From contig JALHOL010000008.1 in NCBI GenBank assembly GCA_022843025.1, positions 124,001 through 188,000 of the forward strand: DNA of 64,000 nucleotides. The letters run 5' to 3'. The notes below the pieces were generated by a model. It saw only the letters and a list, made by a program, of their open reading frames with translations, did not search any database and had not been told where the DNA came from. The position numbers were made by a program, and so were the translations under genes. Below are positions 36,611 through 57,927 of the stretch, piece after piece (positions within the stretch are counted from its first letter, which is position 1; each line of letters starts with the position of its first letter). The stretch comes from Paracoccaceae bacterium (GTDB lineage: Bacteria > Pseudomonadota > Alphaproteobacteria > Rhodobacterales > Rhodobacteraceae).

Positions 36611-36640
36611 GGCCCGCGCAGGACGCGGGCCTTTTTCTTT
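36611..36640 (+). terminator. Intrinsic terminator of phaB
   Basis: GGCCCGCG and CGCGGGCC are separated by five bases and followed by TTTTTCTTT. It lies 22 bases after the phaB stop and is one of the clearest intrinsic terminators in the window. Confidence 0.93.
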
Positions 36641-36664
36641 GCCGTTGCAAGGTTTAGAACCACC

Positions 36665-36707
36665 AAAAATCTGTGAAGATTTTTGCAAATTTCTTCGAAG
36701 AAATTTG
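36665..36707. repeat. Two adjacent AT-rich perfect palindromes
   Basis: AAAAATCT/AGATTTTT with a GTGA spacer (36665-36684) is followed after one base by a 22-base perfect palindrome with arm CAAATTTCTTC (36686-36707). They lie between the phaB terminator and the ATG of the EamA gene. The arms resemble those of the hairpin arrays at 46906 and 57819, but the ACG/CGT loop is missing. Confidence 0.7.
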
Positions 36708-45878: not shown

Positions 45879-46901
45879 ATGCCGGAAGACCACGATAAAC
45901 CGGAACCCTTGGGCCTATTCCTGCGCGCCGAAGAGGCCCCGCCCTTCGGCCCGACCGAACTGGTCGCGGGTCTGCTGGCGCTGGTCTGGGTGGTGGCGGT
46001 CATCGCCTATGCACTGATGGCGCCCGATGGAACATCGGGTGGCCTGCTGGGCCTGGTGATGACGTTGCTTGCCGTGTTCCTGCCGCTGGCGCTGATCTGG
46101 GCCGCCGTGACCACGCTGCGCTCCGTCCGCGTGCTGCGGGCCGAGGCCGCGCGCCTTCAGGCCACGGTGGATGCCATGCGCAACGCCTATCTCCTCAGCC
46201 AGCAGACGCAGGCCGCGATCAAGCCGGGCGTGGAACAGCGGCTGGAAGAGGTGGCGCAGGTTGCCCGCGAAACGGCGGGCGTTCTCGCCTCATTCCAGAC
46301 GCGGCGCGATCCCGGCCTGACCGTGCCGTCGGCGGATCGCAAGGCGGCGCTGGTGCCGCCGCCCCGCCCCGCGCCGCAGGATGAACAGCCCGCCCTCGCG
46401 CTTGGCACCCCGGCCGAGGATCTGCGCGCGCCCCTGTCAATCGGCGATTTCATCCGCGCGCTGAACTTTCCCGAAAACCCTGATGACCGCGAAGGGTTTC
46501 GCGCCCTTCGCCTTGCGCTGGAGGATCGCACCACCGCCAAACTGATCCGCGCCGCGCAGGATGTGCTGACACTGCTCAGCCAGGAAGGCATCTATATGGA
46601 TGACCTGACCCCGGAACGCGCCCGGCCGGAGTTGTGGCGCAAATTCGCCCAAGGCGAACGCGGCCGCGCCATCGCCGCGCTGGGCGGCATCCGGGATCGG
46701 TCCAGCCTTGCGCTGACCGGGGCAAGGATGCGCGAAGACCCGGTCTTTCGGGATGCGGGCCACCATTTCCTGCGCACCTTCGACAAGACGTTTCAGGAGT
46801 TCGAGAAGAACGCCTCTGACACCGACCTTGCCGAACTGGCCGACACGCGCACGGCGCGGGCCTTCATGCTGTTCGGTCGCGTGACAGGGACCTTCGACTA
46901 G
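45879..46901 (+). CDS. Membrane protein with coiled coil, unknown function (340 aa)
   Basis: I do not recognise this family. Two transmembrane helices (about residues 28-46 and 56-77) are followed by a coiled coil (VLRAEAARLQATVDAMRNAYLL) and a proline-rich linker. A helical cytoplasmic domain of about 160 residues starts near LSIGDFIRALNFPENPDD. It begins 29 bases after greA and is probably in the same transcript. The stop is followed after four bases by the first hairpin of a symmetric hairpin array. Confidence 0.75.
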   Translation: MPEDHDKPEPLGLFLRAEEAPPFGPTELVAGLLALVWVVAVIAYALMAPDGTSGGLLGLVMTLLAVFLPLALIWAAVTTLRSVRVLRAEAARLQATVDAMRNAYLLSQQTQAAIKPGVEQRLEEVAQVARETAGVLASFQTRRDPGLTVPSADRKAALVPPPRPAPQDEQPALALGTPAEDLRAPLSIGDFIRALNFPENPDDREGFRALRLALEDRTTAKLIRAAQDVLTLLSQEGIYMDDLTPERARPELWRKFAQGERGRAIAALGGIRDRSSLALTGARMREDPVFRDAGHHFLRTFDKTFQEFEKNASDTDLAELADTRTARAFMLFGRVTGTFD

Positions 46902-46905
46902 GAAA

Positions 46906-47019
46906 GCGAAATTTGACGCAAATTTCGCGCGCATTCCTGACGCAGGAATGCTGGCGCGCAGAATGCGCGCCTACGGAATTTGCGTCAAATTCCGTCGCGA
47001 AGTCTGCGTCAGACTTCGC
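46906..47019. repeat. Symmetric tandem hairpin array A (114 bp)
   Basis: Five hairpins stand two or three bases apart. A1 46906-46928 has arm GCGAAATTTG and loop ACG. A2 46931-46951 has arm GCATTCCTG and loop ACG. A3 46954-46970 has arm GCGCGCA and loop GAA. A4 46974-46994 has arm CGGAATTTG and loop CGT. A5 46997-47019 has arm GCGAAGTCTG and loop CGT. All arms are perfectly complementary to their partners. The array fills the space between the stop of the membrane-protein gene and the stop of convergent sua5. No T run follows, so it is not a standard terminator. Confidence 0.92.
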
Positions 47020-47984
47020 TAACCCCCAAACGAACCTCGCGGGGCCGCCGCCCGGCGCAGGCGATCATTGATCGCCCGCCCCAGCCCAACTTCCGGCACC
47101 GGGGCAAAGGCGATGCGCCCGCCTGCCCCTGCCAGCACATCCGCCGCGCGCAGCACGTGGAATAGCGTGGCCGCCGCCTCCACCAGATCGCCGCGTTCCG
47201 ATAGGGTCAGCGCAGCAGCAGGGCAGGGGCCGAACCCCACCCAGACCTCGCCCGGCTCCGGCACCGTCACGCCTAACCGCACCAGCGCACCGGGGGCATA
47301 GTGGCTAGCCAATTGTCCCGGCGCATTTGGCCGCGCGGCATCCCCCCCCGCCAGCAGGGCCACCCCCAGCGCCGCCTCCAGCGCCTCAACCGGCACCCCG
47401 CCGGGGCGCAGCAGGCTGGGCGGGCCGTCCAGCCCAAGGATGGTGGATTCCAACCCCACTGCACAGGCCCCGCCGTCCAGAATCCCCTCGATCCGCCCCG
47501 CCAGCCCCGCCCGCACGTGATCCGCCCGCGTGGGCGACACCTTCCCCGACGGGTTGGCCGAAGGCGCGGCCATCGGCCCGCCGAACGCCCGCAGCAGCGC
47601 CTGCGCCACCGGATGCGCGGGCACCCGGATCGCCACCGTCTTCAGCCCCGCCGTCACCAGCGGTGACAACCCCGCATCTGCGACCACCGGCAGCACCAAT
47701 GTCAACGGGCCCGGCCAGAACGCCGCTGCCACCGCCTCGGACCGGGCATCAAAGCGCGCAAACTGCCGTGCGGTTGCCACATCCGGCACATGCACGATCA
47801 GCGGGTTGAACCTTGGCCGCCCCTTGGCATCGAAAATCCGCGCCACCGCACGATCCGACCGCGCATCCCCGCCCAGCCCATAGACCGTCTCGGTCGGAAA
47901 GGCGACAAGCCCCCCGGTGCGCAGGATTTCTGCTGCGCGTGCAATCCCTTGGGGGCTATCGGTCAGGTCTTTGGTGGCAATCAT
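47019..47984 (-). CDS. sua5: L-threonylcarbamoyladenylate synthase (Sua5/TsaC type)
   Basis: The enzyme makes threonylcarbamoyl-AMP for t6A modification of ANN-decoding tRNAs. The 321-residue protein is the long Sua5 form. The YrdC domain comprises FPTETVYGLGGDA near residue 30, KGRPRFNPLIVHV and the TVAIRVPAHP/SANPSGK segments, followed by a C-terminal Sua5 domain (SHYAPGALVRLG). The ATG at 47984 fits the family start; an upstream extension has no similarity. Its stop codon adjoins hairpin array A. Confidence 0.94.
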   Translation of the reverse strand: MIATKDLTDSPQGIARAAEILRTGGLVAFPTETVYGLGGDARSDRAVARIFDAKGRPRFNPLIVHVPDVATARQFARFDARSEAVAAAFWPGPLTLVLPVVADAGLSPLVTAGLKTVAIRVPAHPVAQALLRAFGGPMAAPSANPSGKVSPTRADHVRAGLAGRIEGILDGGACAVGLESTILGLDGPPSLLRPGGVPVEALEAALGVALLAGGDAARPNAPGQLASHYAPGALVRLGVTVPEPGEVWVGFGPCPAAALTLSERGDLVEAAATLFHVLRAADVLAGAGGRIAFAPVPEVGLGRAINDRLRRAAAPRGSFGG

Positions 47985-48141
47985 GGCCCATGACCTCGCG
48001 CGTGACGCTGCGTAGGGGTTGAGAAGGGGCAAACGGTCTGTAAACCTTTGCGGGTCAGGAGCCATTACCCGTCACGGCCCGCTTTGCCAAGCGTCCCGCC
48101 TGTGCCGCAGCCCGGCCCCCGGCATGTCAGAGGATCGACCC

Positions 48142-57818: not shown

Positions 57819-57927
57819 GCGGAATTTGACGCAAATTCCGCGCCGAAATCTGACACAGATTTCGCACCCCAAGCGCGCGCCCCGAAATCTGCGTCAGATT
57901 TCGCTACGATTTCTGCGTCAGAAATCG
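57819..57927. repeat. Symmetric tandem hairpin array B (109 bp)
   Basis: B1 57819-57841 has arm GCGGAATTTG and loop ACG. B2 57844-57864 has arm CGAAATCTG and loop ACA. The centre 57865-57882 contains GCGCGCGC. B4 57883-57903 has arm CGAAATCTG and loop CGT. B5 57907-57927 has arm CGATTTCTG and loop CGT. The order of loop types, spacing and GC-rich centre copy array A. It follows the Lrp gene stop by one base and lies between convergent genes (Lrp gene and rpsU). The following 210 bases to the rpsU terminator are C-rich and empty. Confidence 0.92.

Follow-up and report, generated by a model that had tools for sequence, protein, structure and literature searches.

The window, by which we mean the whole 64,000-nucleotide stretch of Paracoccaceae DNA analysed here, includes two convergent genes, one without a Pfam family and the other encoding a threonylcarbamoyl-AMP synthase (Table 1). 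Five hairpins had been predicted at positions 46906-47019, filling the gap between these genes, and this arrangement (array A) was confirmed; the last base of its hairpin H4 is the first base of the stop triplet of the minus strand gene. The folding of array A clearly exceeds that of shuffled sequences (z of -10.2 on the plus strand and -11.0 on the minus strand, equalled by 0 of 200 shuffles). A second array of the same family, absent from the original prediction, is located further downstream and is shared with a genome of the same species (G061). The two arrays alone contain 8 triloop hairpins of at least 9 bp, compared to 0-2 in each first-order shuffle of the entire window (n = 20).

Table 1 Coordinates of the genes and hairpin features in the window.
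Feature	Position	Strand	Stem and loop	Remarks
TTCG-type hairpin pair	36664..36707			22-nt period; second tandem-hairpin family
Upstream gene	45879..46901	+		340 aa, without Pfam family; 3' end toward array A
Array A, hairpin H1	46906..46928		10 bp, loop ACG	starts 4 nt past the stop codon of the + gene
Array A, hairpin H2	46931..46951		9 bp, loop ACG	loop-to-loop distance of 24 nt from H1
Array A, GC-rich central hairpin	46953..46971		8 bp, loop GAA	
Array A, hairpin H3	46973..46995		10 bp, loop CGT	inner arm CGGAATTTG, the commonest of the family
Array A, hairpin H4	46997..47019		10 bp, loop CGT	
Convergent gene, threonylcarbamoyl-AMP synthase	47019..48065	-		Sua5_yciO_yrdC and Sua5_C domains; 3' end toward array A
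Second array, same family	57819..57927			starts 1 nt past the stop codon of a + gene (called end, 57817)
Second array, first hairpin	57819..57841		loop ACG	
Second array, second hairpin	57844..57864		loop ACA	
Second array, third hairpin	57883..57903		loop CGT	
Second array, fourth hairpin	57907..57927		loop CGT	

BLAST comparison of the array A region with its own genome gave 37 matches, and 44 half-elements (two neighbouring hairpins each) were extracted from the window and from 26 stretches around these matches. A covariance model of the half-element recovered 64 halves scoring at least 50 bits at 36 places of the 3.9 Mb genome (hand count) and, at E 0.01 or better, matched 18 of 18 genomes of the genus, the small G004 with just 3 matches. 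The further arrays expected in related genomes were thus found, and the own-genome copies together with the matches across the genus lead us to reject array A as a local accident. In other genera of the family 3 of 19 genomes were matched (best E 2e-6 to 6e-5), and in other families of the class 0 of 24, with the stricter filters of the multi-genome search, which weak matches may escape. The best weak matches from other genera (L053, L054 and L055) are tandem hairpin pairs with different arms and loops, apparently near stop codons, which suggests tandem hairpins at gene ends as a family-wide theme. Judged by these matches, the four-hairpin repeat appears so far to be clear solely in one Paracoccaceae genus, Paragemmobacter/Tabrizicola-like, whose named relatives in an orthologue search were Rhodobacter ruber and Gemmobacter straminiformis (both now Paragemmobacter) and Tabrizicola sp. 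TH137. Around the upstream gene's orthologue, 80 named loci gave no match to the model; the same loci contain 9 tandem perfect-hairpin pairs, mostly at the array A gap, compared to 0 in one shuffle. There were no matches to the repeat at E 1e-5 in plasmids and phages, and no exact match of the one 21-base hairpin searched in viral contigs.

The element is made up of a 10 bp hairpin, a 9 bp hairpin, a variable centre and then the mirror image, with stems of 9-10 bp and loops ACG in H1 and H2 and CGT in H3 and H4, in support of the predicted two-fold symmetry (ACG, ACG, centre, CGT, CGT). The phase of the hairpins is strict: the loop-to-loop distance was 24 nt in 44 of 44 half-elements (20-28 nt allowed), extracted by seeking only 3-nt loops with TG...CA closure. 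With 4-nt loops admitted, the TG...CA demand dropped and 22-26 nt allowed, it was 24.0 in 38 and 24.5 (4-nt loops) in 8 of the 46 pairs of 23 complete own-genome arrays. The invariance of TG...CA in the 44 halves arises by construction, as the detector required it; the claimed closure nevertheless stands, since 124 of 130 hairpins in array regions close with TG once the demand is dropped. Concerning the constant 3-nt loop of the original prediction, most loops are exactly ACG (CGT on the opposite strand; 65 of 88 in the 44 halves), but the size is not strictly constant (3 nt in 84 and 4 nt in 8 of the 92 loops of the complete arrays). The centre varies in sequence and length (H2-H3 loop distance of 39-82 nt in the 23 complete arrays), and in some arrays includes a GC-rich hairpin of its own.

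The arms differ among copies, and the H2 arm of array A, GCATTCCTG, was seen once among the 44 halves. The element also has polarity: the arm CGGAATTTG, or a near variant, is carried by one inner hairpin but never by both in 20 of 29 arrays, and after orienting by CGGAATTTG the commonest arms are, in order, CGATTTCTG, CGGAATTTG, CGATTTCTG and CGAAATCTG. The oriented arrays are 11 forward and 9 reversed; relative to the transcription of the upstream gene in tandem pairs the ratio is 6:5, so that a function, if any, is strand-symmetric. Polar copies in both orientations would suit the non-autonomous element suggested originally, but the mobiliser family searched (Y1) did not pass its cut-off in any of 19 genus genomes. 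The arm tests used the 23 of 38 arrays with detected hairpins that were complete enough. Selection for unlike arms within one element was rejected, the total of identical arms being as expected (15 versus 13.8). Identical adjacent arms number 0 versus 4.2 expected (p 0.009), and H1=H3 or H2=H4 identities are in excess (12 versus 4.2 expected, p 1e-4); given the polarity, this excess would come from descent from one polar ancestor and not from selection.

Pairing is maintained while the arms drift, as had been predicted, and this is borne out by the 44 halves and by the comparison between species. In the 44 halves 98.8% of the pair cells are standard, versus 80.1% when shuffled; changes affect both partners in 13 of 19 pairs, and the covariation score of 0.501 compares to 0.157 in shuffles and at most 0.219 with slid partners. 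The same-species genome G061 carries arrays at the same sites for all solid own loci except array A and L150, and 33 of 36 matched loci (array A, lacking in the sister strain, excluded) served to estimate rates of change between strains: 23 of 2335 stem positions (1.0%), 19 of 377 loop positions (5.0%) and 53 of 833 centre positions (6.4%) changed, compared to 506 of 8115 fourfold sites (6.2%) and 0.75% of codon positions 1+2 in the flanking genes. The stems differ strongly from fourfold sites (p 4e-32), while loop (p 0.38) and centre (p 0.88) are indistinguishable from them. In a GC-rich genome fourfold A/T sites, 24% of which changed, do not make a fair comparison; G/C sites were therefore compared separately, and there the stem deficit is smaller but persists (16 of 1100 versus 284 of 7009; 1.5% versus 4.1%, p 4e-6). 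Because stems change far less than loops, centre and fourfold sites, these substitution patterns indicate that stem pairing is under purifying selection at resident copies. All 23 stem changes between strains are single and none is double; template-switch repair of quasi-palindromes would give double changes about as often as reversions, and selection is favoured over it for this reason.

Across species, where fourfold divergence reaches 36%, the difference is 11.7% in loops and no more than 4.6% in stems, the stem rate being an upper bound because L234 H2 and L238 H1 were aligned in the wrong register. The comparison covers nine sites and 21 of 23 attempted pairs (the other 2 had no complete array in one partner); its members share partners and are non-independent, and the copies come from top-scoring matches, favouring well-paired ones. 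The printed counts are 717 pairs the same, 30 compensated and 9 broken of 756, and after correction of the register by hand about 18 compensated and 11 broken. Arms at orthologous copies do, therefore, covary. The loop, taken originally as the fixed part, is weakened as a constant functional part by its rates of change both between strains, where it evolves close to fourfold sites (5.0% versus 6.2%) and only stems are strongly constrained, and between species, where loops are constrained too, less than stems.

The position of the arrays relative to genes was determined with gene ends from a codon-usage gene caller, which placed 34 of 42 own-genome loci and window stretches: 12 in convergent gaps, 19 in tandem gaps, 2 in divergent gaps and 1 without clear type. 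For comparison, the window gaps of at least 20 nt (n = 50) include 9 convergent and 12 divergent ones. Of the 34 arrays, 25 have one or more stop codons no further than 15 nt away, among them all 12 convergent ones, a count in which L012 and L024 are over-extended by spurious hairpins (L012 otherwise lies at -1 nt from the stop codon). Of the 19 arrays in tandem gaps, 18 are closer to the upstream gene's 3' end (sign test p 8e-5) and 13 lie within 15 nt of it, versus 3.3 expected under uniform placement. The proposed role as a stabiliser of RNA 3' ends fits this place behind stop codons.

A second family of tandem hairpins was found at 25 places in the same genome (hand count). These TTCG-type pairs resemble the four-hairpin repeat in having adjacent hairpins with different, covarying arms, and differ from it in the 22-nt period, the TTCG/TTCC/TTGG centre and the presence of one pair instead of two mirrored ones. 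Of 23 inspected pairs, 17 have a stop codon no more than 15 nt away and 9 are in convergent gaps. The pair in the window follows an ordinary T-run terminator (about 36611-36638) and precedes the next called start codon, and the TTCG family is consequently not strictly a 3'-end family. Both a TTCG pair and a four-hairpin array are found in one convergent gap (L264, G000:C6:300791-300967), each by a different stop codon. Behind a gene end at L280 (G006:C3) there is a set of four hairpins in another arrangement, which may be a third cassette family; in G000 and G061 one hairpin resembling the L280 sequence is also found upstream of the L028 array.

The two families alternate at single sites. The array A gap is occupied by the four-hairpin array in the window's genome only; in G061 and in G001, G005, G008 and G012 it contains a TTCG-type pair, CAAAAATCTTCGAAGATTTTTG followed by CAAATTTCTTCGAAGAAATTTG or a close variant, and in the remaining genus members other hairpins or none. 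The reverse occurs at the L191 site, with the four-hairpin array in 12 genus genomes and a TTCG pair in the window's genome, G005, G010 and G012 (G017 carries another hairpin pair, G001 was not anchorable and G004 had no match); in G005, G010 and G012 the sequence behind the TTCG pair reads as a remnant of H4. At this site the left flank of the window's genome is 81% and the right flank 100% identical to G061, so that recombination of a larger segment may have brought in the other cassette. At one of two further sites the four-hairpin array was found in 4 of 18 genomes, and at the other in 3 of the 13 (out of 16) that were readable, with one half-element besides; 3 of the 16 loci at the L152 site (L294, L296 and L307) end at contig ends, which makes the gap unreadable. 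One half-element, L295 (G017:C8), consists of two hairpins only and seems to have arisen by deletion between hairpins 1 and 3, whose arms are identical. Syntenic gaps without tandem hairpins were observed at the L028 site in G014, G005 and G013, indicating that the element is dispensable. From these comparisons the cassettes appear to replace one another and to be dispensable at single sites, yet constrained where present.

The account that we favour, and hold to be somewhat probable, is that of a dispersed palindromic repeat kept as a strand-symmetric structured mRNA 3' end. The placement and the conserved pairing suggest that the repeat probably works as a structure at mRNA ends: once transcribed, the array would fold into hairpins right behind the stop codon and offer a structured 3' end from whichever side transcription arrives. 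The folded array might then block 3'-to-5' exonucleases and/or help to end transcription, termination being perhaps aided by a short outward pyrimidine tract, and the mRNAs of the flanking genes would gain a defined, stable 3' end. Terminal structures protect mRNA 3' ends in general, according to the part of PMC3997798 considered here. Counting against this account, in global minimum-free-energy folds all four local hairpins are kept in only 3 of 48 strands (24 arrays), the global fold being more stable by 9 kcal/mol on average than the best one restricted to short-range pairs; long-range pairing is also possible because the arms are similar. The arms change hairpin by hairpin across species, which argues for the local hairpins as the selected fold.

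A bidirectional intrinsic terminator of unusual form, consisting of the hairpins plus a very short pyrimidine tract, is an unlikely alternative. It accords with the 12 of 34 arrays in convergent gaps and with the enrichment outside the outer hairpins, where the first three bases are pyrimidines in 90/84/74% of 54 feet and T in 44/43/33%, versus a background of 17%. Many tails are nevertheless CCCC, and the GC-rich hairpin plus T run of an intrinsic terminator was not found, the short pyrimidine tract being all that is present. The absence of a T run at array A had been predicted correctly, and a consensus terminator scan gave 0 sites in 46800-47200. The same genome also has ordinary T-run hairpins, and such terminator-like hairpins occur inside some arrays or beside TTCG pairs, so termination itself is not always needed from the elements.

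We regard as quite unlikely a DNA-level element, in which the palindromes would be bound by protein, as double strand or cruciform, where transcription units converge. For BIMEs, gyrase or IHF have been proposed as binders. The strand symmetry, and the 24-nt phase of all 44 halves with 3-nt loops, would be in line with such an element, as would the lack of a significant G-U bias in the sense RNA (G-U versus A-C mismatches 12:8, a few non-array hairpins of L012/L176 included), which is expected if both strands must pair. Free variation of the arms with pairing kept would, however, be needless for a protein reading double-stranded sequence, and the shared part is restricted to the TG-ACG-CA core, the loop of which changes between strains at about the rate of silent sites.

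A purely selfish non-autonomous repeat (REP/MITE-like), its perfect stems due to recent copying or template-switch repair, is improbable: it would explain the dispersed copies with polarity in both orientations, the presence that differs among species with some syntenic gaps empty, and the half-element in G017, but copies at the nine sites common across species still pair at about 36% silent divergence, stems lack about five sixths of the changes expected from fourfold sites (about two thirds for G/C sites), stem changes are all single and none double, and no Y1/RAYT transposase (PF01797) exceeded the family cut-off in 19 genus genomes.

Returning to the structured mRNA 3' end, a broader version, which we put forward tentatively and consider somewhat unlikely, is that many genes in the genus (and in the family, in other sequence forms) end in interchangeable cassettes of tandem hairpins, selected for pairing, with at least two unrelated cassette families taking each other's place at the same sites beside stop codons; the strict phase would mark a ligand reading two adjacent hairpins at once, as part of a dedicated two-strand 3'-end system. 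It has long been asked whether REP-like repeats are parasites or working parts, and here the question becomes measurable: the stem constraint at resident copies is close to that of codon positions 1+2, while the centres drift like silent sites. The alternation of cassettes at single loci of near-identical strains provides a ready-made comparison of mRNA 3' ends and stability.

The search of Rfam gave 0 matches in the window at gathering score, and the 6 matches at a relaxed threshold were far below gathering scores. No description of the four-hairpin repeat was found in the literature searched, which included the portions considered of PMC3733652, PMC12306157, PMC2229807, PMC2573895, PMC2267715, PMC3997798 and PMC2817692. 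Among the closest known systems are the REP/BIMEs of the RAYT-linked GTAG superfamily, which share short dispersed palindromes, opposite-orientation dimers and a location between convergent or same-direction genes. The general features of REP/BIMEs (dispersed extragenic palindromes, alternating orientation, near gene 3' ends) are present here, and the prediction of a BIME-like array is upheld in the sense of a dispersed BIME-like element. The passages of PMC3733652 on which we draw describe the same gene-end placement for GTAG and CGTC REPs of other bacteria, convergent GTAG REPs lying mostly within 20 bp of both 3' ends. The four-hairpin repeat differs in that its feet generally lack the GTAG tag, no RAYT passes the cut-off, and each element has four hairpins in a 24-nt phase with covarying arms. 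An unpaired GTAG was counted 4 times near the outer feet of 34 arrays (both feet and both strands), and at least one of these 4 is a stop codon (L015). PF01797 was found in 0 of 19 genus genomes over the family cut-off (the control was positive in 5 of 14 genomes), with one match below it in G008; in some hosts the RAYT transposase may be lost, according to the same passages (PMC3733652).

The CGTC REPs of alpha-Proteobacteria are described there as having no dedicated transposase, sequence-variable stems of 8-9 bp and loops of 4-5 nt, and as forming opposite-orientation dimers near 3' ends with an unpaired CGTC end tag and mostly a CCA tail (PMC3733652, in the parts considered). The repeat shares with them the alpha-proteobacterial host, the variable stems and the opposite-orientation dimers by 3' ends; it is unlike them in that CGTC spans the loop and closing pair, the feet generally lack such a tag and most loops have 3 nt. 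Terminal CGTC was counted 4 times near the feet of 34 arrays and CCA at 4 of 68 outer feet, and the stems of 9-10 bp and loops of 3 nt (84 of 92) do not correspond to the 8-9 bp and 4-5 nt of CGTC REPs. Membership of the tagged REP superfamilies is rejected on the defining tags, loop size or transposase. A further comparable system is that of the Rhizobium-specific intergenic mosaic elements (RIME), known from Rhizobiales. RIME are about 100 bp long with a two-palindrome layout. The portion of PMC2573895 considered presents them as intergenic palindromic repeats of alpha-Proteobacteria. On the best reading, the four-hairpin repeat, for which no mobiliser of the Y1 family was found over the cut-off, is a REP/BIME-like element at gene ends that forms a separate family with an architecture of its own.
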